A program made the translations under genes and the position numbers. A DNA stretch of 64,000 nucleotides from the NCBI GenBank assembly GCA_017460515.1, contig JAFUAY010000040.1:1-64000 (forward strand). Reading direction: 5' to 3'. Of this stretch, positions 6,792 to 50,240 are shown piece by piece. The notes under the pieces were generated by a model. It saw only the letters and a program-made list of their open reading frames with translations, searched no databases and was not told the origin of the DNA. This DNA is from Prevotella sp. GTDB taxonomy: Bacteria; Bacteroidota; Bacteroidia; Bacteroidales; Bacteroidaceae. Every line of letters begins with the position of its first letter. Within the stretch, counting starts at the first letter, position 1.

Positions 6792-8204
6792 ATGCAACAA
6801 AGTCACAAATTGCTGTGGGATAATTTTCTGAAATTGATTCAGAGAAACGTTCCTGAGCAAACATACAAAACATGGTTCGAGCCCATCGTATTCGAGAGAT
6901 ACGATGAGGAACGTTCGACTTTGTTGGTGCAGGTTGATAGCCCCTATGTCTACGAGTATCTGGAGGAACATTTCGTTCAGTTGATGGGGTGGGCTTTGAA
7001 CCAAAGTTTCCACGCAAACGTGAGGCTGACTTACCGCGTGGTGACGGATAAGGCGCATAAGATTACTCAGGAGTTCGAGAGTGACGAGCCAGCTGATATT
7101 GAATCTGTACCAGCTTCTAATCATGTCAATAAAGCACCCGATGTGCTTGATGCAGCATTGCCTCAACAGCTAAATTCGCAGTTGGACCCCAAACGAACTT
7201 TCGATAATTTCATTGAGGGTGCTTCCAATAAGTTGCCTCGTACTGTAGGCCTTTCGATTGCTGAACATCCGGGAAAGTCTACTTTCAATCCTTTCTTTAT
7301 CTACGGACCTTCAGGCTGTGGCAAGACGCATCTGATTAATGCCGTTGGCGTACATATTAAAAAGATGTATCCACAGAAGCGCGTGCTTTACGTTTCTGCC
7401 CATTTGTTCCAGGTGCAGTTTGTGGATGCTAAGCTGCAGAATAAAATCAATGACTTCATCAACTTCTATCAGACTATCGATGTTCTGATTGTTGATGATG
7501 TGCAGGAGTGGGCTACCTCTGAAAAGACAGTTGCCACGTTCTTCTATATTTTTGACCATCTGTTCCGCTTGGGTAAGCAGATTATTCTGGCCAGCGATCG
7601 TCCTCCTGTTGACCTTGCCTGGCTGAAGGATCGTATGCTCACCCGTTTCTCTTGCGGACTGATTGCTGAACTGGAGAAACCCAATGTGCAGCTCTGCGTG
7701 GATATACTGGAGTCAAAATGTCGTCGTGATGGTTTGAAGATATCATCTGATGTTATTCAGTTTATTGCAAGCACAGCTAATGGAAGCGTTCGCGACTTGG
7801 AAGGTGTCATCAACTCACTGATGGCCTATAGTATAGTCTATAATTCCAATATCGATATGCGTCTGGCTGAGCGCGTCATCCAGCGTGCTGTCAAGGTTGA
7901 CAACCATCCGCTTACAGTTGATGATATCCTGGATACTGTTTGTCAGCACTACAAAGTATCGCAGCAGAACGTGTTCAGCAAGAGCCGTAAGCGTGATTAT
8001 GTATTGGCAAGACAAATCTCCATGTATCTGGCACAGAAGTTCACGAAGATGCCAACCTCACGTATTGGTCAGCTAATAGGAGGTCGCGACCATTCAACGG
8101 TAATCCATAGCTGTTCAGCTGTTGAGCAGCGACTGAAGGTCGACAAGGCTTTCGTCGAAGAACTGAACAGCATCGAATCATCCTTCCGACTGAAACACGC
8201 TTAG
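6792..8204 (+). CDS. dnaA: Chromosomal replication initiator DnaA
   Basis: DnaA binds and melts the replication origin. The 470 residues contain the N-terminal helicase-interaction domain (about 1-85), a variable linker, and the AAA+ core with Walker A GPSGCGKTH (about 171-179) and Walker B VLIVDDVQEW (about 231). The C-terminal DNA-binding domain has the signature GGRDHSTVIHSC near residue 430. Length is normal. dnaN and recF are not adjacent, so the gene does not mark an oriC of the E. coli or Bacillus type. The TAG stop is the first part of a 22-bp tandem repeat array that runs into the terminator. Confidence 0.98.
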   Translation: MQQSHKLLWDNFLKLIQRNVPEQTYKTWFEPIVFERYDEERSTLLVQVDSPYVYEYLEEHFVQLMGWALNQSFHANVRLTYRVVTDKAHKITQEFESDEPADIESVPASNHVNKAPDVLDAALPQQLNSQLDPKRTFDNFIEGASNKLPRTVGLSIAEHPGKSTFNPFFIYGPSGCGKTHLINAVGVHIKKMYPQKRVLYVSAHLFQVQFVDAKLQNKINDFINFYQTIDVLIVDDVQEWATSEKTVATFFYIFDHLFRLGKQIILASDRPPVDLAWLKDRMLTRFSCGLIAELEKPNVQLCVDILESKCRRDGLKISSDVIQFIASTANGSVRDLEGVINSLMAYSIVYNSNIDMRLAERVIQRAVKVDNHPLTVDDILDTVCQHYKVSQQNVFSKSRKRDYVLARQISMYLAQKFTKMPTSRIGQLIGGRDHSTVIHSCSAVEQRLKVDKAFVEELNSIESSFRLKHA

Positions 8205-8298
8205 CGTTCCTAGGCTTTGCTCATAGCGTTCCTAGGCTTCACTCCTAGCGTTCCTAGGCTTCACGCTTAGCGTTGCTATGCTTTACTCTGAGCGTTCC
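8202..8298 (+). repeat. 22-bp tandem repeat array at the dnaA 3' end
   Basis: Four full units begin at 8202, 8224, 8246 and 8268, exactly 22 bp apart. Each starts TAGCGTTCC (TAGCGTTGC in unit 4). The first three contain the palindrome CCTAGG. The core AGCGTTCC occurs at 8203, 8225, 8247, 8269 (one mismatch) and 8291; the fifth is the left arm of the terminator. AGCGT and ACGCT at the edges of a unit form a further dyad. Confidence 0.95.
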
Positions 8299-8320
8299 AG
8301 TGGAACGCTTTTTCTTTTTT
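8291..8320 (+). terminator. Terminator of dnaA built from the repeat array
   Basis: AGCGTTCC (8291-8298), AGT loop, GGAACGCT (8302-8309), then TTTTCTTTTTT. The left arm is the fifth copy of the 22-bp repeat, so each upstream AGCGTTCC could also pair with the right arm. Confidence 0.9.
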
Positions 8321-8365
8321 GTACTTTTTAACTACGATTCTCGTATAGAAACACTAAAGAATTAG

Positions 8366-8373
8366 TACCTTTG
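8366..8373 (+). promoter_or_regulatory. Promoter -7 box of the histidine kinase gene
   Basis: TACCTTTG matches TAnnTTTG exactly, 28 bases before the ATG at 8402. No clear TTTG -33 element precedes it. Confidence 0.7.
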
Positions 8374-8401
8374 CGGAGTAAAACCACCTAAAACTTACTG
8401 C

Positions 8402-10138
8402 ATGAAGTTTCTTCAGCACATTGTGGCCCTCATGATTCTATGGGTAAGCTTGTCTACAAATGCCAAGATTGCCCCTGATGATTCTGTCTATATTGCCCTT
8501 CGCAGTGAGATGGGGGCAGCCTTTAATGCTGGCGATAGTGCTGAGTTCCATCGGGCTATAGCTGTTTTGGAAGACTATTGTCTGGCGCAGGATGACTTAC
8601 ATGCGTACTATACCCAACGTTGTAATGAGATTGTTTTCCTGCTGAATCGTGAGGATATTTTTGGAGCTTACAAGAAGTCAATCTTGCTCTCTCGTGAGTT
8701 GCGTGAGCGCAATCTTTCTTCTGAAATGTATATGGCTATCAATATGATGGGCCATGTTTATAATTATTGTGGCAATCATGAGATGGCTCGTCGCTGCTTC
8801 AGTGAGGTGATTGAGATTATGCAGAAGAACGGGTATACCGAAGGTCTGCCGCCCATTTATATGAATCAGGTACAGGTTGAGATTGACGAGAACCCTGAGG
8901 AGGCGATGCGTCTTTTAGACCTGGCTGCAAAATATTCACAGTCCCCCGACCGCCTGATTGATGTTGAGGCCTATCGTGCTGTGGCAAACTTCAAGCGAGG
9001 TGAGTTTCCTGCTTTTCTGAAGGGCTATGAACTCTATAAGGAGTTGGAGGCTCAAGGCTATACATCTGTTCACGGTGTACGGCTGGAAGCCTATAACCTG
9101 CTGTATCATAAGAATATAGCTGGAGCACTAAAGGTTGCCCAAGACAGTTATGAGAGCACTCCCATCGAGACTTTTATCTATGAATGGTCAGGCGACTGGA
9201 AGCATGCTTATCAGAATCTTCGCAAGCAGATGGCTGAGAATGACTCCATCAATGCAGTGATCCTGAGCAATAGCATGGTAGGCATCCAGAATGAGTTAGA
9301 CCTTTTTGAGGCGGGACAGAAACTGAATCATCAGCGTATCATTGTACTGCTCACCATCGTGGTCAGTATGTTGGTGATTATTGTGGTGCTGCTGATTTAC
9401 AGCTACAAGCGTCGTCGTGATATCAAGGCGCTGAAGGAAGCTCGTGACCGTGCGATGGAGAGCGACAACATGAAGACCGAGTTCATCAATAATGTGAGTC
9501 ACGAGATACGTACGCCCTTGAATATCATCACTGGCTTTACCCAGGTGATGGGCAGTACTGAAGTCGAAATGAGTGCTGATGAGCGCAAGAGGATTGTGGG
9601 TATGATGAGTCATAACACCCGTCTGATTGTCTCACTTGTTGATGAAATCCTTGACTTGTCTATGGCTAATGCCTCTACCGAATTGGAGTGCTCTGATCTA
9701 GTCAACTGTAATCAGCTCTGTCGTGAAGTGTTCCGTGATAATCGTGAGATGAAGGGCGATCAGGTCGAAACTGTCCTTATCTCAGATGTAGATGACGATT
9801 TTACGCTGAAGACCAACAAGATTGTTTTGCAGAAAGTGATCAATGCTTTGATAGACAACGCGTTGAAATTCACTGAAAAAGGCGAGGTCCGTTTGCGCGT
9901 CCGCCAGCTTCGCACTTCGATAGCTTTCGTTGTGGAAGATACCGGTAAAGGTATTCCTGAAGCAGATGCCGAACGTGTATTCGACCGTTTCGAGAAATTA
10001 GACTCGTTCAAGTCCGGCCTTGGTCTCGGACTTACATTGGCCCGCGCATTGGTAGCCCGTCTGAAGGGTACGTTGATGCTTGATACAACATACAAGGAGG
10101 GTGCACGTTTCGTGGTAACGCTCCCTTTAAACACTTAA
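8402..10138 (+). CDS. Membrane sensor histidine kinase with periplasmic TPR-like domain, orphan
   Basis: Senses an unknown signal and should autophosphorylate to drive a response regulator. Order of parts: signal peptide (about 1-21), helical repeats of TPR type (about 30-300), one membrane helix (about 311-335), HisKA with H-box SHEIRTPLNI (His near 366), then an ATPase domain with N-box NALIDNALKFTEKG (about 480), DTGKGIP and GLGLGLTLARAL. There is no receiver or AraC output domain as in the hybrid two-component systems of Bacteroidetes, and no response regulator gene lies nearby. The next gene starts 11 bp after the stop, so the two are probably co-transcribed. Signal and partner are unknown. 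Confidence 0.92.
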   Translation: MKFLQHIVALMILWVSLSTNAKIAPDDSVYIALRSEMGAAFNAGDSAEFHRAIAVLEDYCLAQDDLHAYYTQRCNEIVFLLNREDIFGAYKKSILLSRELRERNLSSEMYMAINMMGHVYNYCGNHEMARRCFSEVIEIMQKNGYTEGLPPIYMNQVQVEIDENPEEAMRLLDLAAKYSQSPDRLIDVEAYRAVANFKRGEFPAFLKGYELYKELEAQGYTSVHGVRLEAYNLLYHKNIAGALKVAQDSYESTPIETFIYEWSGDWKHAYQNLRKQMAENDSINAVILSNSMVGIQNELDLFEAGQKLNHQRIIVLLTIVVSMLVIIVVLLIYSYKRRRDIKALKEARDRAMESDNMKTEFINNVSHEIRTPLNIITGFTQVMGSTEVEMSADERKRIVGMMSHNTRLIVSLVDEILDLSMANASTELECSDLVNCNQLCREVFRDNREMKGDQVETVLISDVDDDFTLKTNKIVLQKVINALIDNALKFTEKGEVRLRVRQLRTSIAFVVEDTGKGIPEADAERVFDRFEKLDSFKSGLGLGLTLARALVARLKGTLMLDTTYKEGARFVVTLPLNT

Positions 10139-10149
10139 CCATTTTTTCA

Positions 10150-12960
10150 ATGAGAAGAAACCGTTTTGCGGTATGTCTTCTGGCCATGTTAACCACAGTA
10201 GTGGCGAAGGCCGGCAATTTGGATGACATACGACAAGCTTTGGAGGAATCCTCCTATTCACAAGTTCAGGAGAAAGTATACATCCATACTGACAATGGAT
10301 GCTATTTCGTGGGCGATACCCTCTGGTATAAGGCCTATGTGGTCAGAGCCGATGATCTGTTGCCGACTGATATCAGCCGTATCCTCTATGTGGAACTGCT
10401 CTCACCCGATGGTTTGTTGGTGGAGCGTCAGCAGATTGTTGTCAGCAATAAAGGTCATATGTGTGGCCAGTTCGTCTTGACGGATTCACTCTATTCCGGC
10501 TACTATGAACTGCGTGCCTACACCCGTTGGATGTTGAACTTCAATGTTCGTCACCATCGTTTCAGTACCACTGACAAGTGGGCCTTCTACAACAAGCAGA
10601 TGGCAGCCGACTATTATCGCATTTGGGACGGACTATATTCGCGTGTGTTCCCTGTCTATAGTAAGCCCGATGAGGCAGGCGATTTCGAATATCGCAGGAT
10701 GTATCAGCGTCCAAAGACACGCATTCAGAAGCCCAAGAAAGAAGACCTCTTTGTCTCCTTCTATCCGGAAGGCGGTCATCTTATTGAAGGTGTGGAGAAT
10801 AATGTGGCCTTCGAAGTGACGAACCAGTTGGGTGAGGCTGTTACTCTCAAAGGAACCGTTACTGGGGCTGAAACACCTTTGACCATTCAAACAGAATATA
10901 TGGGGCGCGGTTCTTTCATCGTCAAGCCTGACAGCCGCCGATTGAAGGCCTCTTTCAATTATCATGGGAAAGCGTATAGCTTCAATTTGCCTCATGCTGA
11001 GAAGAAAGGCTTTGCAGTACGTCTCGCTGACGGGAAAGTCACATTGTCCAGTCACGGTCTGCCCCAGGATGCTTCTTACGGTATGTCCGTCCTTTGTCGT
11101 GGTGCACTGAAGCATTTTGAAACCTTCTCTGCTGGCTCTAACACCATCCAGTTGCCCCTAAACTCACTGCCTACAGGCGTGAATCAGCTCACCCTTTTTG
11201 ATGATGAAGGACAAGTCTTAGCCGACCGTCTGTTCTTTGTCAATCATCATGAGCACGACTCATTACTGATAACGGCTCCTATCGAGTCAACACGAACCTA
11301 CGAACCCTACGAGCTCGTTGAACTGCCCGTTCAGTGTCAGGGCGTTACTGAGCCTACAGCCTTCTCCCTCTCCATCCAGGACCGCACTACCGATGAGCCA
11401 ACCTATGATGATGGTAATCTCATGACCTCCATGTTGCTCTCCAGTGATCTGAAGGGCTTTATCGCCCGTCCCGCCTATTATTTCGAGAAGGATGATGATA
11501 GCCATCGTCGGCATCTCGACCTGCTGATGCAGGTGCAGGGTTGGCGGAAGTATAAGTGGCAGGAGTTGGCTGATACCGCCCGACAGCTGCGCTATACGCC
11601 TGAAACGGCTCTAACCGTTGAGGGACATGTGTATAAGATGATATCCATCAACGAAATTGACCCCGATGAGATTAGCTCCTGGCTGACGGGAACGGCTATG
11701 ATTGGCCAAAAGAAGTCTGACGATGAAGAGGCTACAGAAGATCCCTGGGCTGATGTAGAGACCAGCGAGTTCGAGACAATTGGTGTTGAAACCAGCACTG
11801 AAAGCAATGTTGACGTGAGTACTATTGAAACTGGCAGCTTCGATACCGCCACTGCCGACCTGAGGGCTTATGGCGGTTCCCTTCGCAAGGATGTCTTCGT
11901 TGAGGCAGAGGTCTCGGTCGGCAAGCAAGTCGTTGGTTCTGTGCAGAAGACCAATCGCGGACATTTTCTCTTCCAGGTGCCCCCCTTCTATGGTACTGCC
12001 TACTTGAACATGAAGGCTTATAAAGAGAAAGACTCCCTCAAGAAGAGTATGACGTCGCGTCAGGATAAAAAGGTTCTTGATGAAGACTCCTATCCTGATT
12101 ACTACGTGAAACGCGACCTCTTCTATCCCATCTTCACCCATGAGTACACCTATTACGAGAAGCATCAGCCCGACTTGGACGAGGAGCAGCTCATTGATAC
12201 CCTTTCAGAACTCTCGATGGAGAATGAAGTTCAGCAGCTGGGCAATGTGACTGTTAAAGGCCGTCGGCGTGGTCGCAGAGCCATTGACTGGAAGAAGCCA
12301 GCCTTCGTCATCGATGCCTATCAGATGTATAACGATCTTACCGACTATGGTCTTTCATACGGTAAGCTCGATATGCGGTTGTTCCCCATTCAGGTATGCC
12401 GCTTCCTCTATGGTAATATGAACCGTCATCGCATGTTCAATGTCGACGGACGGTTGGAGGGCTACACCTATTATCGTAACTATTCGCCTTACTCTTTTGG
12501 CTCTGAAGTTGAGGTGGCAGGCCTTCTGCGTGCTAATCGTACCCCTCAGTGGTATGTAAATCGACTGAAAATGAAGCGTATGCAGGATATCCGTGTCTTC
12601 AGTGATTATGAACCGCGAAATGAAGAATCTACGATGGTTGAGTCGATGACTTCTGCTGATGCAACAGTTGATATCGTGCTTATTCCTGATGACGGCATCC
12701 AACCTACGTTCCGTGATCGCCATCTTGTCTTCAAGGGATTCAATGCTCCTGAAGCGTTCTATCAGCCTGATTATAGTGAGCGAAAGCCTGAACAGCCCAC
12801 TGACTACCGTCGTACGCTCTACTGGAATCCCAATGCAGTAACTGATGAACAGGGCCGTTTTGTTGCAACCTTCTATAATAACAGTAAGCAGACGCGTATA
12901 AAAATGACCGCCGCAGGACTTACCAACGACGGTCTGATGATGCACGGAAGCGTCCGTTAG
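10150..12960 (+). CDS. Large envelope protein with MG2-like and TonB plug-like regions
   Basis: A 936-residue exported protein (signal peptide about 1-21) of a family common in Bacteroidetes, with no settled function. Residues about 40-125 (IHTDNGCYFVGDTLWYKAY onward) resemble an alpha-2-macroglobulin MG2 domain. Further beta-sandwich-like parts follow. An acidic Ser/Thr/Asp/Glu linker occupies about 510-575. A segment near 695-800 starting NVTVKGRRRG resembles a TonB-receptor plug domain. The last part (about 880-936), including RTLYWNPNAVTDEQGRF, resembles the conserved terminal beta domain of such proteins. It follows the kinase at 11 bp. A role in the outer membrane or protein quality control is only inference. 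Confidence 0.8.
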   Translation: MRRNRFAVCLLAMLTTVVAKAGNLDDIRQALEESSYSQVQEKVYIHTDNGCYFVGDTLWYKAYVVRADDLLPTDISRILYVELLSPDGLLVERQQIVVSNKGHMCGQFVLTDSLYSGYYELRAYTRWMLNFNVRHHRFSTTDKWAFYNKQMAADYYRIWDGLYSRVFPVYSKPDEAGDFEYRRMYQRPKTRIQKPKKEDLFVSFYPEGGHLIEGVENNVAFEVTNQLGEAVTLKGTVTGAETPLTIQTEYMGRGSFIVKPDSRRLKASFNYHGKAYSFNLPHAEKKGFAVRLADGKVTLSSHGLPQDASYGMSVLCRGALKHFETFSAGSNTIQLPLNSLPTGVNQLTLFDDEGQVLADRLFFVNHHEHDSLLITAPIESTRTYEPYELVELPVQCQGVTEPTAFSLSIQDRTTDEPTYDDGNLMTSMLLSSDLKGFIARPAYYFEKDDDSHRRHLDLLMQVQGWRKYKWQELADTARQLRYTPETALTVEGHVYKMISINEIDPDEISSWLTGTAMIGQKKSDDEEATEDPWADVETSEFETIGVETSTESNVDVSTIETGSFDTATADLRAYGGSLRKDVFVEAEVSVGKQVVGSVQKTNRGHFLFQVPPFYGTAYLNMKAYKEKDSLKKSMTSRQDKKVLDEDSYPDYYVKRDLFYPIFTHEYTYYEKHQPDLDEEQLIDTLSELSMENEVQQLGNVTVKGRRRGRRAIDWKKPAFVIDAYQMYNDLTDYGLSYGKLDMRLFPIQVCRFLYGNMNRHRMFNVDGRLEGYTYYRNYSPYSFGSEVEVAGLLRANRTPQWYVNRLKMKRMQDIRVFSDYEPRNEESTMVESMTSADATVDIVLIPDDGIQPTFRDRHLVFKGFNAPEAFYQPDYSERKPEQPTDYRRTLYWNPNAVTDEQGRFVATFYNNSKQTRIKMTAAGLTNDGLMMHGSVR

Positions 12961-12970
12961 TGGCGCTTCC
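12946..12970. terminator. Weak hairpin between convergent genes
   Basis: GGAAGCG (12946-12952) and CGCTTCC (12964-12970) can pair across the stop codon of the upstream gene. There is no T-run directly after it on either strand, so terminator function is doubtful. Confidence 0.3.
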
Positions 12971-12987
12971 TGTGATTGTCTGTTCCT

Positions 12988-15477: not shown

Positions 15478-15514
15478 CGTTCTTAAGTAGTTTTAATAGT
15501 TATAATTCTGGCGG

Positions 15515-15522
15515 CAAAGGTA
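15515..15522 (-). promoter_or_regulatory. Promoter -7 box of the minus-strand PL11 gene
   Basis: On the minus strand this reads TACCTTTG, an exact TAnnTTTG match, 38 bases upstream of the ATG at 15477. Confidence 0.75.
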
Positions 15523-15528
15523 CACATT

Positions 15529-15549
15529 TTTTATGGACAATCCATAAAA
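15529..15549. promoter_or_regulatory. Perfect 21-bp dyad in the divergent PL11 control region
   Basis: TTTTATGGA-CAA-TCCATAAAA is a perfect 9+3+9 inverted repeat placed where the -33 region of the minus-strand PL11 promoter should be. It is a candidate operator. A second smaller dyad, ATGCAT-TT-ATGCAT, lies at 15650-15663 in the leader of the plus-strand gene. Confidence 0.55.
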
Positions 15550-15628
15550 TATTGGTCGAATGTACTTAAATTTTCGAGATAAATAGCCTAAAATTTGATA
15601 AAAACCTTTTTTGTTGTCATATTTTTCG

Positions 15629-15636
15629 TATTTTTG
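15629..15636 (+). promoter_or_regulatory. Promoter -7 box of the plus-strand PL11-like gene
   Basis: TATTTTTG matches TAnnTTTG. TTTG at 15610-15613 is a possible -33 element with a short 15-base spacer. The leader to the ATG at 15705 is about 65 bases. Confidence 0.65.
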
Positions 15637-15704
15637 CACCGCTACAACTATGCATTTATGCATCGTGAAACGACAAAACTAATAACTATTAATACTACAG
15701 ACGT

Positions 15705-20381: not shown

Positions 20382-20404
20382 TACATTTTTCAGGAAAATA
20401 GCAG

Positions 20405-20442: not shown

Positions 20443-20466
20443 CTTGTCTTGTATCAATAAAAACCT

Positions 20467-23424: not shown

Positions 23425-23459
23425 TTGGGAGCGCAGTTGCTGCGCTCCCAATTTTTTTT
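23425..23459 (+). terminator. Terminator after the secreted protein gene
   Basis: TTGGGAGCGCAG (23425-23436), a TTG loop, CTGCGCTCCCAA (23440-23451), then eight T. A textbook rho-independent terminator. Confidence 0.96.
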
Positions 23460-23500: not shown

Positions 23501-23588
23501 TGACTTTAGTCGGAAGAATTTACGACATAAGTCATAAAATATTACGACAGAAGTCGGAAGCTTTTTCGACATAAGTCGTAAATCATTA
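23501..23588. repeat. Four dyad units at exact 22-bp spacing upstream of the FAS1/SusC/D locus
   Basis: Units start at 23501, 23523, 23545 and 23567. The cores are TGACTTTAGTCG, CGACATAAGTCA, CGACAGAAGTCG and CGACATAAGTCG, that is CGAC-N4-GTCG, with centres at 23506.5, 23528.5, 23550.5 and 23572.5. The 10 bases between cores are AT-rich and less conserved. Two helical turns between dyads puts all four on one DNA face, as expected for cooperative protein binding. The array lies about 125-215 bp upstream of the putative promoter. Confidence 0.9.
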
Positions 23589-23686
23589 AAGACTGTTTTT
23601 AGGCAAAGGAAAAATAGGGAGGACGTTTTTCCTTTTTATTCAATATCCAAAAAATGTAGTGAATTGTCAATATTTGTAGAAAGATA

Positions 23687-34388: not shown

Positions 34389-34427
34389 ATCAATTGGGAA
34401 TGGATAATTGATAATTGAAAATTGATT

Positions 34428-39549: not shown

Positions 39550-39567
39550 TGGCTAAAGATTAAAGAT

Positions 39568-41517: not shown

Positions 41518-41538
41518 AATATAATAATGATCCTTATA

Positions 41539-41598
41539 GTTCAGGAGTTTGGAGTTCTGAAATTCAGAAGTTCAAACTCCTGAACTCTTTATTTTTTT
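41539..41598 (+). terminator. Terminator of the FAS1/SusC/D locus
   Basis: GTTCAGGAGTTTG (41539-41551) pairs with CAAACTCCTGAAC (41573-41585). Inside the loop TTCTGAA (41555-41561) pairs with TTCAGAA (41563-41569). A T-run, CTTTATTTTTTTT, follows. Stacked stems make it very stable. Confidence 0.93.
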
Positions 41599-41631
41599 TG
41601 CCAAATCGTAGGTTAAGTAAAAAAAAAACAC

Positions 41632-41639
41632 TATATTTG
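41632..41639 (+). promoter_or_regulatory. Promoter -7 box of the GH31 gene
   Basis: TATATTTG is an exact TAnnTTTG match, 31 bases before the ATG at 41671. With the terminator upstream, it shows that the GH31 gene is a separate transcription unit. Confidence 0.72.
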
Positions 41640-41670
41640 CGCCATAAATCCATACTAACTTTATTATTAA

Positions 41671-44082
41671 ATGCAAATGAAACCTACAAAACTATTGTGT
41701 TTACTGCTTTCGTTGCCGTTTGTCTCACTTCTGGTCAATGCTGAGGAAGTGAAGGTAAAGGCTGGCGAAAATGAGATTGGCGTTGAGTTTTTCACCCCAC
41801 GTACCGTCCACATCACCAAGCATCCAGTAGGGAAGACAATGACCCATCAGAGCATGGTGGTCATTGCTAAGCCACAAGAGGTGAAGGTAAGGCGTGGCGA
41901 GTCGGGCAGTGAGGTAACAGTCAGCAGTGACGAGGTTACCGTGCGAGTTAACAAGAAAACGGGTCGTATAGATTTCCAGAGCCGTAAGATCAAGAACCTG
42001 CTCAGTGAGCAGTCGTATACTGTTGAGCCTATCACCAAGGGTGCCGATCTGGGTGGATGCCGTGTTGCTACAACGTTCGCTCTTCAGAAGGATGAACCTA
42101 TCTATGGTCTTGGCACCGTTCAGGATGGACGTCTGTCGCATCGTGGCAAGAAAGTGAAGATTGAGCAGTCTAATCTGGAGGATTTCCAGAATGTGTTCCA
42201 GAGCATCCGCGGATGGGGCCTCTATTGGGACAACTATTCTCCCACAGTGTTTGATTCACCAGCTGATGCCAATGCGATGACGCTGAGCTCTCAAGTGGGC
42301 GATGGCATTGACTACTATTTCATGTTTGGTGGCACTGCCGATGGCGTGATAGCCGAGATGCGCGCACTGTCGGGCGACGTGCCAATGTTTCCGTTGTGGA
42401 CCTACGGCTATTGGCAGTCTAAGGAACGCTATAAGAGTGCGAAGGAACTGCTTAGCGTGGTCAGTCGCTACCGTAAAGAGCAGATTCCTCTCGATGGTAT
42501 CATCCAGGACTGGCAGTATTGGGGCTCCAACTATACGTGGAATGCGATGGAGTTCATTGCTGAGGACTTCAAGGATGGTCGCAAGATGATTGATGAGGTG
42601 CATCGTCAGCATGCTCATTTCATGATTAGTATATGGGCAAACTTCGGACCTCAGACAAAGCAGTTCCGTGAACTCGACTCACTGGGTCTGCTTTATGATT
42701 TCGAGACGTGGCCTCAGAGTGGACTGGGCTTCTGGCCGCCACGTAGAGACTATCCTTCAGGTGTACGTGTATATGATGCTTTCAGTCCTGTGGCACGCGA
42801 TGTCTACTGGCGTTATCTGAAGAATCTCTTTGATGAGGGAACTGATGCGTGGTGGATGGACTCTACCGACCCAGACAATTTCGATATGACAGAGCGCGAC
42901 TACGATCACCGTGCGGGCGATGCCACCTATCGTCGTTATCGCAATGCTTTCCCCTTGGCCACTGTCAAGGGCGTCTATGATCATCAGCGAGCACTTGCTA
43001 AGAATGCTTCCGAGCAGGCAAGAGCAGCCGAGAAGCGCGTGTTCATCATGACTCGTTCTGCTTTTGCCGGACAGCAGCACTATGGCTCAGGTCTTTGGAG
43101 CGGCGATGTAACGTCTACATGGGATGTTCTGCGACGTCAGATTCCTCTGGGACTGAACTATTCATTGACAGGCTGTCCAAACTTCAATACGGATATCGGT
43201 GGCTTCTTCGCTGGCCGCTACAATCGTCAGGGTAGTAATTCTGCCCCGCGCAATCCGCAGTATCAAGAGCTTTACGTGCGCTGGATGCAGTATGGACTGT
43301 TCTGTCCGGTATTCCGCAGTCATGGCACTGAGTGTCCCCGTGAGATATGGGAGTTCGGACGTCCTGGTGAACCCGTCTATGACGCCATAGCAGCTCAGAT
43401 TCGTCTGCGCTATCGTCTGTTGCCTTATCTCTATAGCACAGCTTGGCAGGTGACCTCAAACAACGACAGCTATCTGCGTCCGCTCTTTGCTGATTTCATT
43501 GCTGACCGTCGTACATGGGAGATGCCCGATGAGTTCATGTTTGGCCGCAGCATCCTCGCTGCCCCCATCGTCGAGGCACAGTATACTGATGAAGAAGTGC
43601 AGCGCAGCTTCCCCAAAGCCGATTTTACACAGTCGAAGACAGCTAAGAAATACCTGCCAAAGGGTGCTCTTTGGTATGACTTCTGGACAGGAAAACAGTA
43701 TAAGGGCGGCCAGGATATACAGCTGACAACCACACTTGCCCAGGTTCCGATGTTTGTTCGTGCTGGCAGCATCCTGCCACTGGGGCCTGAGATGCAGTAT
43801 GTGGGTGAGAAAGCATGGGACAAACTGGAGTTGCGTATCTACCCAGGTGCTGACGGACAGTTCGTCCTTTACGAAGACGAAGGCGACAACTATAATTACG
43901 AGCGTGGTAAGTATGCCACCATCCAACTGTCGTGGAACAACGCCCGTCGTACGCTTACCATCGGTGCCCGTAAGGGGGCCTTCCCCGGCATGCTACAGCA
44001 GCGCCAGTTTGTGGTTGTCTTACCCGACGGTACCAGCCAGACGGTCGACTACAATGGACAGGAAGTAACGGTGAGAGTTTAG
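41671..44082 (+). CDS. Secreted GH31 glycosidase (alpha-glucosidase/alpha-xylosidase type)
   Basis: GH31 enzymes remove terminal alpha-linked glucose or xylose by a retaining mechanism. The 803 residues have a signal peptide (about 1-24), an N-terminal beta-sandwich, the catalytic barrel with nucleophile Asp in WWMDSTDPDN (about 396) and acid/base Asp in WSGDVTSTWD (about 479), and two C-terminal beta domains, the last a DUF5110-like part with YEDEGDNYNYERGKY. The WWMDST motif resembles that of Bacteroidetes alpha-xylosidases, but the exact sugar cannot be fixed. The gene sits directly after the SusC/D locus with its own promoter and terminator. Confidence 0.92.
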   Translation: MQMKPTKLLCLLLSLPFVSLLVNAEEVKVKAGENEIGVEFFTPRTVHITKHPVGKTMTHQSMVVIAKPQEVKVRRGESGSEVTVSSDEVTVRVNKKTGRIDFQSRKIKNLLSEQSYTVEPITKGADLGGCRVATTFALQKDEPIYGLGTVQDGRLSHRGKKVKIEQSNLEDFQNVFQSIRGWGLYWDNYSPTVFDSPADANAMTLSSQVGDGIDYYFMFGGTADGVIAEMRALSGDVPMFPLWTYGYWQSKERYKSAKELLSVVSRYRKEQIPLDGIIQDWQYWGSNYTWNAMEFIAEDFKDGRKMIDEVHRQHAHFMISIWANFGPQTKQFRELDSLGLLYDFETWPQSGLGFWPPRRDYPSGVRVYDAFSPVARDVYWRYLKNLFDEGTDAWWMDSTDPDNFDMTERDYDHRAGDATYRRYRNAFPLATVKGVYDHQRALAKNASEQARAAEKRVFIMTRSAFAGQQHYGSGLWSGDVTSTWDVLRRQIPLGLNYSLTGCPNFNTDIGGFFAGRYNRQGSNSAPRNPQYQELYVRWMQYGLFCPVFRSHGTECPREIWEFGRPGEPVYDAIAAQIRLRYRLLPYLYSTAWQVTSNNDSYLRPLFADFIADRRTWEMPDEFMFGRSILAAPIVEAQYTDEEVQRSFPKADFTQSKTAKKYLPKGALWYDFWTGKQYKGGQDIQLTTTLAQVPMFVRAGSILPLGPEMQYVGEKAWDKLELRIYPGADGQFVLYEDEGDNYNYERGKYATIQLSWNNARRTLTIGARKGAFPGMLQQRQFVVVLPDGTSQTVDYNGQEVTVRV

Positions 44083-44090
44083 AAAAAGAC

Positions 44091-44130
44091 AGTCCCTCTG
44101 TACAACAATCGTACAGAGGGACTTTTTTTT
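44091..44130. terminator. Bidirectional terminator between GH31 and ackA
   Basis: AGTCCCTCTGTAC (44091-44103) and GTACAGAGGGACT (44111-44123) are perfect inverted repeats with a 7-base loop. Eight T follow on the plus strand, and an AAAAA tract on the other side gives T on the minus strand, so it can serve both convergent units. Confidence 0.94.
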
Positions 44131-44175
44131 ATGCTCGGAAGAGGGGTAGCAAACTCTACCCTCTAAACTCTACAC

Positions 44176-45366
44176 TTAAAGAAGGTTCATCGTGTCGGTA
44201 GCAATCATCAGTTCCTCGTCGGTGGGGATAACGACTACCTTCACCTTAGAGTCATCGGCTGAGAGAATAGCTTCCTCACCGCGCACGTTGTTCTTCTTGT
44301 CATCGAACTTCACACCGAGGAACTCCAAGCCCTTGCAGACTTCTGAGCGCATGCCAATCTGGTTCTCGCCAACACCTGCGGTGAAGACGATCACATCGAC
44401 ACCACCCATAGCGGCAGCATAAGCACCAATATACTTCTTGATGCGATAGAAGTACATATCCTGAGCCAGTGTGGCGCGAGGCTCACCAGCCTTTGCAGCA
44501 TTCTCTACATCGCGCATATCACTTGAACCGCCTGTGATACCAGCCACGCCACTCTTCTTGTTCAGCAGGTTGCTCATGCCGTCGGCATCAAGACCGAGCT
44601 TCTTCTCCAGGAAGGTTACGGCACCACCGTCGATATCACCAGAACGGGTACCCATCACAAGTCCTTCCAGCGGAGTGAGACCCATTGAGGTGTCCACACA
44701 CTTGCCGTCGACAACAGCTGCGATAGAACCGCCATTACCGATATGGCAAGTAATCACCTTTGTGCCTTCTGCCTTCATACCCAGGAACTCCAGGGCGCGA
44801 GCACTGACATAACGATGAGAGGTTCCGTGGAAACCATAACGACGTACGCCATACTTCTCGTAGAGCTCATAAGGAATAGCATACATATAAGCTTTGGCAG
44901 GCATGGTCTGATGGAAAGCGGTATCAAATACACCTACCTGTGGCAGACCAGGCATCAGCTCCTTCACAGCATTCACACCCTTGAGGTTAGCAGGGTTGTG
45001 AAGCGGAGCCAAGTCGCTGACAGCCTCGAAAGCAGCCAGTACTTCGTCGGTGAGCAGCACGCTCTTGTTGAACTTCTCGCCACCATGCACCATGCGGTGA
45101 CCTACGGCGTCAATCTCTTTCAGGTCTTTGATGACACCAATCTCAGGATCGGTCAGCAAGGAGAAAATGAACTTTACACCCTCGGTATGTTCGGGGATGT
45201 CGTGCATAATCTGTTTCTTCTCACCATTGGCCAGCTTAACCTTGACGAAAGCACCGTCCAGACCTACACGCTCGGCACCACCGCTGGTCATCACACTCTT
45301 GTCGTCCATGTTGTACAGTGCGTACTTGATAGACGAAGAGCCACAATTCAATACAAGGATTTTCAT
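44176..45366 (-). CDS. ackA: Acetate kinase
   Basis: Makes ATP and acetate from acetyl phosphate, the second step of the acetate branch of fermentation. The 396 residues are full length with VLNCGSSSIKYAL (Asn7), VGHRMVHGG, the GFHGTSHRYV motif and CHIGNGGS. It lies downstream of pta on the same strand, separated by 45 bases made almost wholly of a heptamer repeat. No promoter box was seen in that gap, so pta and ackA should be one operon. Confidence 0.98.
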   Translation of the reverse strand: MKILVLNCGSSSIKYALYNMDDKSVMTSGGAERVGLDGAFVKVKLANGEKKQIMHDIPEHTEGVKFIFSLLTDPEIGVIKDLKEIDAVGHRMVHGGEKFNKSVLLTDEVLAAFEAVSDLAPLHNPANLKGVNAVKELMPGLPQVGVFDTAFHQTMPAKAYMYAIPYELYEKYGVRRYGFHGTSHRYVSARALEFLGMKAEGTKVITCHIGNGGSIAAVVDGKCVDTSMGLTPLEGLVMGTRSGDIDGGAVTFLEKKLGLDADGMSNLLNKKSGVAGITGGSSDMRDVENAAKAGEPRATLAQDMYFYRIKKYIGAYAAAMGGVDVIVFTAGVGENQIGMRSEVCKGLEFLGVKFDDKKNNVRGEEAILSADDSKVKVVVIPTDEELMIATDTMNLL

Positions 45367-45371
45367 ATTTT

Positions 45372-45413
45372 CTTAACTCTTAATTCTTAACTCTTAACTC
45401 TTAATTCTTAACT
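45372..45413. repeat. Six tandem heptamers between pta and ackA
   Basis: CTTAACT or CTTAATT occurs six times without a break (starts 45372, 45379, 45386, 45393, 45400, 45407) and fills nearly the whole gap from the pta stop to the ackA start. On the transcribed strand it reads AGTTAAG/AATTAAG, so it also supplies the purine-rich bases before the ackA ATG. Copy number may vary between strains. Confidence 0.93.
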
Positions 45414-46422
45414 ACTTCTTAGCGTCCATGGCCTGACAAGCTGTGATAGCCACGAGATAGTAAATATCCTCTACTGAACAACCACGGCTCAAGTCGTTAA
45501 CAGGACGGGCAATACCCTGAAGGATGGGACCGATAGCGGTAGCGCCAGCCAGACGCTGAACGAGTTTATAGGCGATGTTACCTACCTCCAGACAAGGCAT
45601 CACCAGCACGTTTGCCTTACCGGCAATCTCTGAACCGGGAGCTTTCTTGCAGCCAACACTAGGTACGAGTGCTGCGTCAGCCTGCAACTCACCGTCAATC
45701 TTCAGGTTGGGATCCAGCTCTTTAGCCAGCTTTGTTGCCTCAACAACCTTGTCTACCACTTCGTGAGAAGCAGATCCCTTGGTTGAGAAGCTCAGCATAG
45801 CCACGCGGGGATCAGCGAATCCTGCCACACTCTTGGCGGTCTGAGCCGTGCAGACAGCAATCTGAGAAAGCTGATTAGCATCGGGCATTGGCGTTACGGC
45901 AACGTCACCAAAGACGAGCACACCATTCTCACCATATTCGGGCTTATCGGTAATCATCAGCATAGCACCGCTCACGCAGGTGATGCCAGGGGCACACTTG
46001 ATGATCTGCAGGGCAGGACGCAGGGTCTCACCTGTTGTAGAGAGTGCACCAGAGATCTGACCATCAGCACCTTCGGTCTTGATAATCATGCATCCCAGAT
46101 AGAGGGGATCCTTCACCAACTCACGAGCCTTCTCGATGGTCATGCCCTTCTTCTCGCGCAGTTTGGTCAGCAACTGTGCATATTCCTCACTCTTCTCGCA
46201 GTTCAGCGGATCGATGAGTGTTGCCTTGTCGATGTGGGTCAGCCCTTTCTCCTTAGCCAGTGCATGCACCTTGTCGGGGTTACCGATAAGAATCAGGTCT
46301 GCGATGTCTTCAGCCAGTACACGGTCGGCTGCACAGAGTGTGCGCTCCTCTTCTGCTTCGGGGAGCACGATGCGCTGCTTGTTGCTCTTAGCACGCGCAA
46401 TGATTTGTTCAATTAATCCCAT
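45412..46422 (-). CDS. pta: Phosphate acetyltransferase
   Basis: Converts acetyl-CoA and phosphate to acetyl phosphate, feeding acetate kinase. The 336-residue form is the short class without the regulatory N-terminal domain. Visible family segments include RIVLPEAEEERTL, GMTIEKARELVKDPLYLG and the C-terminal VNDLSRGCSVEDI. It is the first gene of the pta-ackA operon, with its own promoter at 46475-46482. Confidence 0.97.
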   Translation of the reverse strand: MGLIEQIIARAKSNKQRIVLPEAEEERTLCAADRVLAEDIADLILIGNPDKVHALAKEKGLTHIDKATLIDPLNCEKSEEYAQLLTKLREKKGMTIEKARELVKDPLYLGCMIIKTEGADGQISGALSTTGETLRPALQIIKCAPGITCVSGAMLMITDKPEYGENGVLVFGDVAVTPMPDANQLSQIAVCTAQTAKSVAGFADPRVAMLSFSTKGSASHEVVDKVVEATKLAKELDPNLKIDGELQADAALVPSVGCKKAPGSEIAGKANVLVMPCLEVGNIAYKLVQRLAGATAIGPILQGIARPVNDLSRGCSVEDIYYLVAITACQAMDAKK

Positions 46423-46474
46423 ACGTTTGTTTTGTTTTGATAGATTATATCTGATAAATGTAATGTTCAGATTG

Positions 46475-46482
46475 CAAAAGTA
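46475..46482 (-). promoter_or_regulatory. Promoter -7 box of pta-ackA
   Basis: On the minus strand this reads TACTTTTG, an exact TAnnTTTG match, about 53 bases upstream of the pta ATG. Confidence 0.72.
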
Positions 46483-46530
46483 GTAAAAAAAGTTGTATTA
46501 CCACTTTTCTGGCATGATAATTAATTATTT

Positions 46531-47151
46531 TTATCTGATGAAGTTCGTTCTCACCGGACTCTCCAGTTGTGGATGTCCTTCCTCGCTGACGTTCAGTTTC
46601 CGTATCATCCACGCCATGTTGCGTCCCAGTGTGCGCATGGTCTGCATACCCTCTTCGTCCTGGGCGACTTGTCCGGGCGTCTGTCCGTATGCCATGTTCC
46701 AATACTGAGAACTGACGATGGGCATGTTCAGAATGGTGAAATACTTGTTCAGGCGGTCGAAGGCAGCCGAGGCACCTCCTCTTCTGCAGACCACCACGCT
46801 GGCACCAGGCTTGAATCGCAGTTCGCTACCCAGCGAATAGAACACACGGTCGAGTAGGGCACAGAGTGAACCGTTCGGACCACCATAGTAAACAGGCGAG
46901 CCGATGACCATTCCGTCGATGCCGTCCTTAACTACTCGCCACACCTTATTATATAGTTCGTCGCGGAAGGTACACCTGGGTGTAGTGCGTCCGCACCAGC
47001 CACAGGCTATGCATCCCTGTACTGCCTGTTTACCAATACTGATAATCTCTGTTTCGATACCCTCGCTGTTCAGTGTCTGTGCCACCTCTTTCAGTGCCAG
47101 CATCGTGTTGCCGTTCTCTCTGGGGCTTCCGTTGATAAGTAGTACTTTCAT
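46531..47151 (-). CDS. Flavodoxin-fold NAD(P)H-dependent FMN reductase-like protein
   Basis: A cytosolic flavoprotein of the iron-sulfur flavoprotein or NADPH-dependent FMN reductase group. From the ATG at 47151 it has 206 residues with the FMN phosphate loop NGSPRENGNT (about 7-16), a Cys-rich CIACGWCGRTTPRC segment (about 47-60), and GSPVYYGGPNGSLCALLDR (about 86), which stacks on FMN. An ATG at 47247 would add 32 residues, but a promoter box (47176-47183) lies inside that stretch, so the shorter start is preferred. The physiological electron acceptor is unknown. pta lies downstream with its own promoter. Confidence 0.88.
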   Translation of the reverse strand: MKVLLINGSPRENGNTMLALKEVAQTLNSEGIETEIISIGKQAVQGCIACGWCGRTTPRCTFRDELYNKVWRVVKDGIDGMVIGSPVYYGGPNGSLCALLDRVFYSLGSELRFKPGASVVVCRRGGASAAFDRLNKYFTILNMPIVSSQYWNMAYGQTPGQVAQDEEGMQTMRTLGRNMAWMIRKLNVSEEGHPQLESPVRTNFIR

Positions 47152-47175
47152 AGTTTTATGTTTTAGTTGCGTCTG

Positions 47176-47183
47176 CAAAGATA
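47176..47183 (-). promoter_or_regulatory. Promoter -7 box of the flavodoxin-fold gene
   Basis: On the minus strand it reads TATCTTTG (TAnnTTTG), 25 bases upstream of the chosen ATG at 47151. Confidence 0.7.
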
Positions 47184-47298
47184 GGAAATAATCGCGAATA
47201 CAGCGAATAATTGTGGATTTATTCTTTCTACCTGCCAATTTAATCATTCTTTAACATCTTTTATGATGATATGCAAAGTGTTTAACTAAAAGATATTG

Positions 47299-47306
47299 TA
47301 AATTTG
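47299..47306 (+). promoter_or_regulatory. Promoter -7 box of the first GH2 gene
   Basis: TAAATTTG matches TAnnTTTG, 34 bases before the ATG at 47340. The mRNA therefore contains the first of the two possible starts. Confidence 0.7.
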
Positions 47307-47339
47307 TCGCAATATAATGACTAAAAACGAACCATTGAT

Positions 47340-49925
47340 ATGAAAAAGACCGCTTTCTCACTTGTCCTCGTTCTGATGACTGCCTTATGCGTTCATGCCC
47401 AGTCGTCTTCTGGAGAAACTCAGGAGAAGAAACAGCTGCGTAGCAGCAATGTAGGCTTTGGTCTTATCTCCAATCCCTACACAGTTATGAATAAATTATT
47501 CGCAATTCTGGCGATTCTGTTAACATGGACGGAAGCTGAGGCCCAAACCCAAGTCTTGTTTGATGATGATTGGGAGTTTTCCCGTAATGGAAAGACTGTC
47601 AGCGTCAATCTGCCGCATGACTGGGACATCTATACGTCGCCCGATTCGCAGACTGGCGCAACTGGTACTGGCGGGGGCTGGTTCCAAGGTGGAAAGGGCG
47701 AATACAAGAAGACATTCAGAGTTGAGCGTTCAAAATTGAGAGAAGGACTGGTGAAACTTCATTTCGAGGGAGTCTACCAGAAGGCTGAGGTGTTTGTCAA
47801 CGGACAGAAGGCCGGACAGCATGCCTATGGTTTTACACCTTTCACCGTAGATGCTACACCGTATATTAAAGAGGTGAAGGGTAAATCTTCCGAACTAAAC
47901 GAGGTAGTTGTGAAGGTCGATAACAGTGAACAGCCCAATTGCCGCTGGTATTCTGGTTCCGGTATCTACCGTCATGTATGGTTGCAAACATTGTCTGAAG
48001 CGCATATCAGCGACGTTGGCATTGCTATTCATATCAATCAGGAATACAATCATACGACGAAAGTGGGTCTTCAGATTCCGCTCGTCAATGAAGGAAAGCA
48101 ACCCCATCAGATTGATGATATAGAGGTGGCGCTGACAGGTGGCGACTTCACACCGCATCCCAGTAATGAAAAAGCAAGACAGTCAATGGTAGAGAGGGGA
48201 TACTTCATGATGAAGCCCAAGGCCAAGATTACGTTTGGTCAGACGTTCACCATCAATCATCCCCGTATGTGGTCGCCTGACGATCCGTATCTCTATGAGG
48301 CTATCGTCCGTGTGAAGGAGAAAGGGCGCGTCATTGAAGAGAAGCATCTGAAGTTCGGCATCCGCACCATTGAGTTCGATGCAGAGAAAGGCTTCGTGCT
48401 CAACGGCAAACCCCTGCTTATCAATGGCGCTTGTGTTCATCATGACAACGGAATCCTGGGTGCTATGGCATTCGACGCAGCCGAGATACGCAAGGTGAGA
48501 CTGATGAAGGAAGCTGGTTTCAACCTGATTCGCACCAGTCACAATCCTCCCTCGCGCGCCTTCCTCGATGCCTGCGATTCGTTGGGCATGCTGGTTATCG
48601 ATGAAGCCTTCGACGGATGGCGCTCGGCTAAGTCGAAGTACGACTATTCCACCCTCATAGACTCCTGCTACAAAGAAGATATCACAGCGATGATGCTCCG
48701 CGATCGCCATCATCCCAGTATCATCAGTTGGAGCATTGGCAACGAGGTGATAGAACGTAAGGATATTCGTGTGGTGACCACTGCCAGAAAAATGAAGAAA
48801 CTGGTTAACTACATCGATAACACCCGTCCTGTTACAGAGGCTCTCTGCGCCTGGGACAACGATTGGGAGATCTATGACCCCCATGCTGAGGTTCTCGATG
48901 TGGTGGGCTATAACTATATGATTCACAAGCATGCCACCGACCACGAGCGTGACCCCCAACGAGTGATGTGGCAGACGGAGAGCTATCCGCGTGATGCCTT
49001 CAAGAACTGGATGCTGGTTCAGAAATACCCATACATCGTAGGCGATATCGTTTGGACGGGTCTTGACTACTTGGGTGAGTCAGGCATCGGTCGCACCTAT
49101 TATGAAGGTGAAAAAGCTGGTGAACACTGGGTGGCAGGCGGTATTCCAGACTGGCATGGAGCCTACTGCGGTGATGTAGATATCACAGGTTGGCGAAAGC
49201 CCATCAGCCATTATCGCGAAATGTTGTGGAACAGCTCACCCAGCTCCTCCGAGGAAGAGAATCTCTATATGGCGGTCAGGGAACCGGATGGCTATCGGGG
49301 AAAGATTCATGAGACGTCCTGGAGCGTTTGGCCTACTTGGGAAAGTTGGAACTGGCAGGGCGGACTTGACAGGAAAGGCGATAATATTCCTTCTTGGGAA
49401 GGTAAGCCCATCGATGTGGAAGTCTATACCAAGTCGGCTTGGGTCAATCTTTATCTAAACGACGAGCTGGTAGGGAATAGGAAAGTGGATGAGAGCACCC
49501 AGTTCAAAGCTACTTTTACGCTGCCCTACAAGCCTGGAACACTGAAAGCCGTCAATGCCCAAGGACAAAAGGTGACACTAAGCACAGCCGGCGAACCTGC
49601 ACAACTGCGACTTACTGCCGACCGCTCTGTGATGACTGCCGACGGGCAAGATCTTGCTTTCATCACCGTAGAGGTAGTGGATTGTGAGGGACGCGTCTGT
49701 CCTGATGCTGCCATACCCTGTGAAGCCATCGTGAAAGGCCAAGGACAATTGCTAGCCTTTGCCTCTGCCGATTTGAAGGATCGCGAGCCAAAGACGTCAG
49801 CACACGCCACCACCTGGAAGGGTCGCGCCCTCCTCGTGATACGCAGTGGACAAAAGAAAGGCAGCACGCAAGTCTCTATCAAGAGTAGCTTACCAACAGC
49901 CTCCCTCCTTATCAAGGAAAGATAA
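47340..49925 (+). CDS. Secreted GH2 glycosidase (beta-galactosidase type) with two signal peptides
   Basis: GH2 enzymes remove beta-linked galactose, glucuronate or mannose by a retaining mechanism. The reading frame has 861 codons. It opens with one signal peptide (about 1-20, ending CVHAQ), then about 28 hydrophilic residues, then Met50 and a second full signal peptide (about 50-68, ending AEAQ) before the true GH2 sugar-binding domain (from about 72, LFDDDWEFSRNG). The barrel shows the acid/base Glu in SWSIGNEV (about 469) and the likely nucleophile Glu in WQTESYPR (about 546). A further beta domain follows. Met50 (47487) alone would give a normal enzyme of 812 residues, but the promoter position favours the first ATG. 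Confidence 0.9.
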   Translation: MKKTAFSLVLVLMTALCVHAQSSSGETQEKKQLRSSNVGFGLISNPYTVMNKLFAILAILLTWTEAEAQTQVLFDDDWEFSRNGKTVSVNLPHDWDIYTSPDSQTGATGTGGGWFQGGKGEYKKTFRVERSKLREGLVKLHFEGVYQKAEVFVNGQKAGQHAYGFTPFTVDATPYIKEVKGKSSELNEVVVKVDNSEQPNCRWYSGSGIYRHVWLQTLSEAHISDVGIAIHINQEYNHTTKVGLQIPLVNEGKQPHQIDDIEVALTGGDFTPHPSNEKARQSMVERGYFMMKPKAKITFGQTFTINHPRMWSPDDPYLYEAIVRVKEKGRVIEEKHLKFGIRTIEFDAEKGFVLNGKPLLINGACVHHDNGILGAMAFDAAEIRKVRLMKEAGFNLIRTSHNPPSRAFLDACDSLGMLVIDEAFDGWRSAKSKYDYSTLIDSCYKEDITAMMLRDRHHPSIISWSIGNEVIERKDIRVVTTARKMKKLVNYIDNTRPVTEALCAWDNDWEIYDPHAEVLDVVGYNYMIHKHATDHERDPQRVMWQTESYPRDAFKNWMLVQKYPYIVGDIVWTGLDYLGESGIGRTYYEGEKAGEHWVAGGIPDWHGAYCGDVDITGWRKPISHYREMLWNSSPSSSEEENLYMAVREPDGYRGKIHETSWSVWPTWESWNWQGGLDRKGDNIPSWEGKPIDVEVYTKSAWVNLYLNDELVGNRKVDESTQFKATFTLPYKPGTLKAVNAQGQKVTLSTAGEPAQLRLTADRSVMTADGQDLAFITVEVVDCEGRVCPDAAIPCEAIVKGQGQLLAFASADLKDREPKTSAHATTWKGRALLVIRSGQKKGSTQVSIKSSLPTASLLIKER

Positions 49926-49952
49926 TCCTGTTGCGATTTTTTATTTTTTTTG

Positions 49953-50042
49953 TTTTGCTGCCACTCTGCCACCTTTCTCTGTATATTGTTGATAGTCAGG
50001 TGATTACGGGTGGTGGCAGCAAGGTGGCAGGTGGCAGCAAAA
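49953..50042. mobile_element. 90-bp inverted-repeat element, MITE-like
   Basis: TTTTGCTGCCAC then TCTGCCACCTT (49953-49975) and AAGGTGGCAG then GTGGCAGCAAAA (50021-50042) are inverted copies, 22 paired bases with one bulge, around 45 bases of non-coding DNA. A further GGTGGCAGCA copy lies at 50012-50021. The ends are flush with T-rich and AT-rich flanks. It resembles a miniature inverted-repeat element, but no transposase or clear target duplication is visible. Confidence 0.5.
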
Positions 50043-50061
50043 TTTTATATTAGTTTCCATG

Positions 50062-50240
50062 CAGGAAACTTTTGTTTTCTCATTGAGAAAACAATGTTTT
50101 CCCTTGGAGGAAACAATGTTTTCCCTTATGAGAATATTTTGTTTTCTCACGTGAGAAAACAATGTTTTCCTTTGGAGGAAACGATGTTTTCCTAGAGAGA
50201 AACTATTGTTTTCTCGTTGAGAAACCATTGTTTTCTCTTC
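50062..50240. repeat. Eight tandem palindromic 22/23-bp units at the pspC 3' end
   Basis: Units start at 50062, 50085, 50107, 50130, 50153, 50175, 50197 and 50219. The consensus core is GAGAAAAC-AAT-GTTTTCYC, itself a palindrome, and the joints between units (GTTTTCTC-ATT-GAGAAAAC) are palindromic too, so half-sites recur about every 11 bp. The last units are translated as the final residues of the PspC protein, including its stop codon at 50203-50205. All reading frames through the array are repeat-derived; no separate gene is called. Confidence 0.95.

Follow-up and report, generated by a model that had tools for sequence, protein, structure and literature searches.

Three tandem arrays in a single stretch of Prevotella DNA (the window, 64,000 nucleotides in full) are built of units of one length, 22 bp, and differ in sequence. 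Is the shared length an accident, or does it have a common cause? The window belongs to an assembly of 2.27 Mb that is 65% complete. The arrays and their neighbors are as follows.

6792..8204, forward strand: dnaA gene (ORF call; relatives compared), upstream of array 1
8203..8290, forward strand: array 1, four 22-bp units of family 1 (sequence, TRF, ORF call)
8291..8309, forward strand: terminal unit of array 1, a perfect hairpin AGCGTTCC-AGT-GGAACGCT, then T-rich DNA (sequence)
23428..23458, forward strand: terminator-like hairpin (about 23428-23450) and T run (sequence, by eye)
23508..23595, forward strand: array 2, four 22-bp dyadic units of family 2 (AGTCG...CGACATA), the last diverged (sequence, TRF, fold p 0.01)
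50074..50239, no strand assigned: array 3, seven family 3 units (two of 23 bp) and a partial eighth (sequence, TRF, fold p 0.02)
50203..51468, reverse strand: 421-aa ORF with its stop inside array 3 (ORF call)

The unit length of 22 bp given in a preliminary description was confirmed for each array. TRF returned period 22 at 8196-8298 (4.7 copies), 23508-23582 (3.4 copies), and 50073-50239 (7.5 copies), and reading of the sequence agreed, with unit starts at 8203, 8225, 8247, and 8269 in array 1; at 23508, 23530, 23552, and 23574 in array 2; and at 50074, 50096, 50118, 50141, 50164, 50186, and 50208 in array 3. The few 23-bp units that had been noted in the third array are two, those starting at 50118 and 50141. 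A unit of array 1 consists of AGCGTTCCTAGGCTT and a variable tail and contains CCTAGG, and the perfect hairpin of this array is its terminal unit. A unit of array 3 reads GTTTTCTC-N3-GAGAAAAC-N3. In all three arrays, the units follow head to tail, with none of the unique spacers between them that are a CRISPR trait. The reported location at gene ends or in control regions also held. Array 1 begins on the dnaA stop codon, and the terminal hairpin at 8291-8309 is, judging from its sequence, probably the dnaA terminator. Array 2 has the terminator-like hairpin after the upstream gene on one side and the next gene on the other. Array 3 is flanked by convergent ORFs, and the ORF at 50203-51468 ends within it.

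Chance agreement has in its favor that the window holds only three arrays. Against it stand counts from this genome and its relatives. In a sample of the same genome consisting of the window and 20 stretches of 20 kb, 9 of which were chosen with a known match in view, period 22 accounted for 24 of 53 arrays of at least two copies, and the intergenic lag count peaked at 22, with 20 loci. In the 11 stretches taken without a prior match, lag 22 had 8 intergenic loci, and no lag outside its multiples had more than 2. Intergenic DNA around dnaA in relatives peaked at the same lag (68 loci in all, with L109, from a Cloacimonadota bacterium, excluded from the lag counts): 7 loci for the 34 of Prevotella type, where the next lag had 3, and 16 loci for the 33 of Bacteroides type, where the next had 2, not counting echo peaks at 44 and 66. 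None of the five first-order randomizations of each group produced a locus at any lag. The check that had been proposed, a 22-bp peak among noncoding tandem repeats of Prevotella, thus came out positive, with the peak absent from random sequence. Because the lag peaks lie at 22 even in stretches without a prior match, the chance reading is refuted, and we regard its probability as negligible.

Counts under other rules (lag counts, period list, two-copy duplications) gave the same peak. When our own sample and the dnaA loci were pooled with stretches from four genomes of the same genus, 85 noncoding arrays (24 of them from our own sample) had a 22-bp row and 86 had other periods only. This comparison is biased toward 22, because any cluster of TRF rows with a 22-bp row was scored as 22, and it includes a few purine-rich runs. 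The commonest other periods were 21 (16 arrays), 7 (12), and 14 (11). Near-perfect two-copy duplications measured 22 bp in 11 of 48 noncoding cases, where only 14 bp was commoner (14 cases, of the heptamer class), and in 1 of 30 coding cases. For near-perfect duplications, 22 bp made up 37 of 98 noncoding and 1 of 57 coding cases, as divided by a crude longest-ORF gene caller, which scored the arrays at L052 and L053 as coding. In the genome G017, 20 of 22 noncoding arrays were of 22 bp, in stretches sampled around known copies of an element described below. As an outer sample, 100 kb was taken from each of eight genomes that belong to other genera, four sharing the class and four sharing the phylum. 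Noncoding 22-bp arrays were seen there only in G101 (three), and G101, G127, and G128 each had a single 21-bp array. The 22-bp peak is pronounced in Bacteroides and Prevotella, whereas in this small outer sample it is faint or missing. The common cause that had been proposed from one length under different sequences passes its test, with a clear peak in the genome and its relatives, and the interpretation as a whole is partly supported.

Other repeats were also seen. Heptamer repeats (periods 7 and 14) form a separate class (window 45371-45413; L033:6763-6806; L038:13598-13646). Downstream of dnaA in a Prevotella relative lies an array with a period of about 28, read by eye (L063, about 11540-11724). 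G101, which is from another family, carries repeats that contain TCATTGCGA or its complement, at mixed periods of 20-22 (L227:16264-16419, L231:14690-14773).

The arrays had been called unrelated. Their sequences do differ, but families 1 and 3 are joined by mixed arrays at L021 and L023 that hold words of both (by eye). With overlapping rows and opposite-strand rows of one place merged, the array 1 query matched 11 distinct places in the genome, that of array 2 matched two (one beyond the window array), and that of array 3 matched eight. The units of the 24 arrays of our own sample fall into several families within this one genome. When 99 same-genus genomes were searched with array 1, one match of 25 bases was obtained, in one genome; family 1 is species-specific, as tested with array 1 within the genus.

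The window DnaA is at most 84% identical to the DnaA of Prevotella-type genomes. In two relatives (L075 and L107; DnaA 83-84% identical), a single AGCGTTCCTA is present at the dnaA end, and array 1 may therefore have grown in place from a sequence already there. A dnaA-specific role of array 1 was rejected: among 35 dnaA 3' regions (the window and 34 others), three (the window, L052, and L053) have a 22-bp array just downstream, and the sequences of these are unrelated. Two side observations concern sequence likeness and gene copies. The unit AGCGAAACTACGTTTTACTCAT of this genome (L034:8370-8427, L043:5881-5976) resembles the unit GCAAAACCTACGCTTTTACCGT of the genome G084 save for small gaps, by eye and possibly by chance. 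In one assembly (isolate Tb.RUG.330), dnaA occurs twice, on JAEEQH010000001 (L063) and JAEEQH010000004 (L064), with identities to the query of 73 and 75%; this reflects either two gene copies or a mixed assembly.

The preliminary description also placed inverted repeats in each unit. For the fold test, each unit was taken three in a row and compared with its own shuffles. A p of at most 0.05 was reached by 32 of 85 22-bp units. The same level was reached by 11 of 200 22-mers drawn at random from intergenic DNA and, among units of other periods between 14 and 60, by 6 of 61. In the window, the inverted repeats were borne out for arrays 2 and 3 (p 0.01 and 0.02) but not for array 1 (p 0.33). A recognition of two-turn dyads as the general rule was not supported, and the dyad was rejected as the general cause of the length: the 53 of 85 units that are not significantly dyadic are equally 22 bp long, and dyads whose sequences differ show no preference for a spacing of 22. 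Such dyads gave 19 pairs at 22, with 6 to 22 at neighboring spacings and no peak, whereas dyads of similar sequence gave 81 pairs at 22. Moderately similar dyads showed a small excess (14, against 6 and 7 at the neighbors), and dissimilar pairs were in excess at 33 and 55, as expected from a second dyad within arrays. A stricter first search (346 centers, 3 dissimilar pairs at 22) was superseded by this fuller one. Since the peak lies in similar and not in dissimilar dyads, the 22-bp spacing comes mainly with copying.

Among dyadic units, family 3 has a layout of 8+3+8+3, in which conserved 8-nt arms have variable 3-nt spacers on both sides (units from six loci). The first count used 30 units chosen by arm similarity, a choice that favors conserved arms. 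A recount of 29 units cut regardless of the arms, some of them out of register, gave a mean column entropy of 0.76 bits for the arms and 1.48 for the spacers. Double changes inside arrays were not enriched (11, against a shuffle mean of 8.5 with sd 2.4; 43 of 200 shuffles reached 11), and compensatory change within arrays was rejected on this ground.

Placement between genes was counted with the same crude gene caller, on which the following figures rest. Convergent genes enclosed 25 arrays where 15.1 were expected by length (p 0.009), tandem genes 41 (44.7 expected), and divergent genes 13 (19.2 expected). Between tandem genes, 27 of the 41 arrays were closer to the end of the upstream gene (random 20.3, sd 3.2). 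Array edges lay within 10 nt of a gene 3' end in 8 cases (6.5 expected) and of a 5' end in 1 case (4.2 expected). This placement is compatible both with tolerance at gene ends and with a role there. One such role would be in RNA, with tandem hairpins in the transcript terminating transcription or stabilizing 3' ends. The convergent excess, the skew toward upstream gene ends, and the terminator-like hairpin closing array 1 speak for it. However, 13 arrays lie between divergent genes, the majority of units are not dyads, double changes within arrays are not in excess, edges within 10 nt of 3' ends are not clearly enriched, and Rfam gave no match at gathering score for eight loci (42,588 bases), including those of the three arrays (L001, L009, and L011). 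Taken together, we consider an RNA role quite improbable.

The 22-bp frame also occurs in a larger, dispersed element of G084 and its sister genome G017. A 35-mer of this element was found, with at most three mismatches, at 135 places in G084 and 66 in G017; the same G084 35-mer was found at none in the other 98 genomes searched, and the reversed control gave none. In G084, the element is intergenic, and 23 of 29 measured copies are 189 bp long; in 30 aligned copies it shows inverted ends, the 22-bp frame, and invariant blocks with free linkers, and it had no Rfam match. Examples are G084 L148:1501-1741 and G017 L226 near 7022. In 62 of 65 copies from the two genomes, the first 7-nt word of the element is complementary (at least 6 of 7) to a word of unit 2 or 3, and four different words occur among these copies. 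Perfect complementarity was counted in 38 copies of both genomes against 28.2 (sd 3.3) after shuffling, with 14 of 5000 shuffles reaching the count; for G017 alone 112 of 5000 reached it, and for G084 alone there was no excess (19 against 20.6; 3914 of 5000), and these figures are not probabilities because the copies share ancestry.

Five sites were compared between G084 and G017, the G017 stretches being drawn around known element copies. Both genomes have the element, with the word swapped as a block, at L156/L226 (both flanks aligned) and at L165/L220 (one flank). At L159/L218 (one flank), the two genomes seem to carry it in opposite orientations, and G017 lacks it at L172/L225 (both flanks) and at L168/L225 (one flank). 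Arms also switch partners by whole units between species: at an orthologous Bacteroides site, the inverted arm in L080 fits unit 1 (18/22) better than unit 2 (16/22), and in L099 it fits unit 2 (20/22) better than unit 1 (15/22). A search for empty sites at four aligned Bacteroides sites found arrays shared or missing, with no readable single-copy ancestor. As a separate observation, larger dispersed repeats surround 22-bp arrays in G016 (L114 and L121; 40 copies scored of 198 candidates) and G024 (L125 and L126), with TGTAAA or TTTACA near their ends, which look like those of the G084 element.

Presence and absence between sister genomes at L172/L225, the inverted ends of the 189-bp element, and the occurrence of family 1 at 11 places and of family 3 at 8 are what MITE-like arrays moved by a transposase in trans would produce, a mechanism suggested for BrickBuilt of Porphyromonas gingivalis. 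BrickBuilt is described as an intergenic 23-nt minisatellite/MITE at 19 places in one genome, with tandem units and predicted stem loops like those seen here and a repeat number that differs between strains; it differs in its unit of 23 nt and in a leader and tail with inverted ends, which the arrays of the window do not have (PMC4596501). No such leader or tail was seen by eye at eight family 1 and eight family 3 loci, while ends of this type occur in G084 and G017. A MITE origin of the window's arrays was rejected, as the same 16 loci share no common flanks (by eye). Nor was a target duplication detected at 29 G084 copies. REP and BIME elements are dispersed intergenic palindromes, and REPs often accompany Y1 transposases; to our knowledge, they have no 22-bp tandem frame. 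The present repeats resemble them as dispersed intergenic palindromes and differ in that frame. For the Y1 transposase (PF01797), the class searched, this 65% complete assembly gave no match, and a RAYT origin was set aside on that limited search. A mobile element as the general account is very doubtful.

A dimeric or polymerizing DNA-binding protein could also set the length, with half-sites every 11 bp on one helix face, selection keeping the 22-bp arrays, and the sequences of each species following changes in the protein. The unit spans about two helical turns, and the 8+3+8+3 layout of family 3 and the invariant blocks, free linkers, and largely constant 189 bp of the G084 element would suit such a lattice; a protein requiring a constant size is likewise proposed in PMC8161180. 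However, arrays of different words stand together in one genome, and dissimilar dyads are not at a spacing of 22. No binding word was common to all genomes, and none was strongly enriched across many of them. In uncorrected counts, each of the most enriched 5- and 6-mers stayed within two or three genomes or loci, while less enriched ones reached further. A protein lattice is possible, though somewhat unlikely.

The view that no named element class matches was wrong in part, as both BrickBuilt (PMC4596501) and a group of constant-length repeats (PMC8161180) are published. The latter, reported by Subirana and Messeguer, are enigmatic noncoding bacterial tandem repeats of constant length (20-23 or 52 nt) and variable sequence; the authors suggest a protein that requires the size or small RNAs and equate 20-21 nt with two helical turns (PMC8161180). 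Going by what that paper describes, the present arrays share the noncoding position, a constant length within 20-23 nt, the variable sequence, species specificity (for array 1, within the genus), several species-specific families per genome, and short words shared within a species; they differ in their length of 22, their frequency in Bacteroides and Prevotella, the dyads in about one-third of units, and the switching of arm partners (PMC8161180). Words beginning with Bacteroid, Prevotella, or hairpin are absent from the main texts of PMC8161180 and PMC6749651. Apart from BrickBuilt, our literature search found no account of such repeats in Prevotella or Bacteroidetes, which does not prove that none exists. 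A 2020 survey in J Bacteriol by Subirana and Messeguer reportedly names 22/44 and 52 nt. The arrays are a clade-frequent variant of this known, unexplained kind of repeat. New here are the frequency in Bacteroides and Prevotella, the 8+3+8+3 layout of family 3, the change of arm partners by whole units from one species to another, and the 189-bp element with 135 near-matching copies in one relative.

In the sampled Bacteroides and Prevotella, noncoding tandem copies come chiefly in 22-bp steps, with species-specific sequences at several places per genome. The reading we favor, with confidence somewhat short of even, is that the arrays are constant-length noncoding minisatellites that arise by copying in 22-bp steps, together with fold-back template switching at dyads. 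The 22-bp ruler, about two helical turns, would then be a property of copying, by slippage or unequal exchange, and not of separately placed hairpins, since the 22-bp spacing is confined to dyads that resemble each other in sequence. In dyadic units, fold-back template switching during replication may copy one arm from another, which would keep the arms alike, free the loops and spacers, and let an arm change its partner by whole units. Template switching at imperfect inverted repeats, also the subject of PMC7202029 and PMC8604942, is reported to make arms alike and to replace several bases at once, including the making, repair, and replacement of hairpin arms (PMC8794818); the abstracts consulted do not mention tandem 22-bp arrays.

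The 22-bp peak, the two-copy duplications, the spacing of similar dyads, the family 3 entropy, and the partner switching all point to copying. The small excess of moderately similar dyads at 22 (14 against 6 and 7) counts against it, and the lack of enriched double changes and the perfect word matches in G084, which taken alone are no better than shuffled, count against fold-back. Slippage templated by hairpins, which had been proposed earlier, keeps some support at dyads, from the family 3 arms, the partner switching, and the word swaps; as 53 of 85 units are not dyadic, fold-back copying cannot be the general source of the 22 bp. Slippage alone accounts for neither the single preferred length nor the dispersed families, and the G084 element, mostly of one length and with invariant blocks next to free linkers, looks like a product of selection. 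The three window arrays can be explained without a cell function; they lie at the ends of genes, where additional DNA is tolerated. A bolder account, which we hold to be unlikely, is that a sequence-blind, length-measuring process (a protein lattice or a replication enzyme) writes and homogenizes noncoding 22-bp units in Bacteroides and Prevotella, in some cases packaged into scattered 189-bp elements in which modular exchange of the 7-nt words preserves their complementarity to a neighboring unit.

A constant repeat length under freely changing sequence is a published, unsolved puzzle. Bacteroides and Prevotella offer a strong case of it, with some members that can be cultured and engineered, and with testable signatures in the 22-bp steps, the free 3-nt spacers, and the unit-sized partner switching. 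Should the length be set by a protein or a replication enzyme, genetic work in a laboratory Bacteroides strain could be used to look for that factor.
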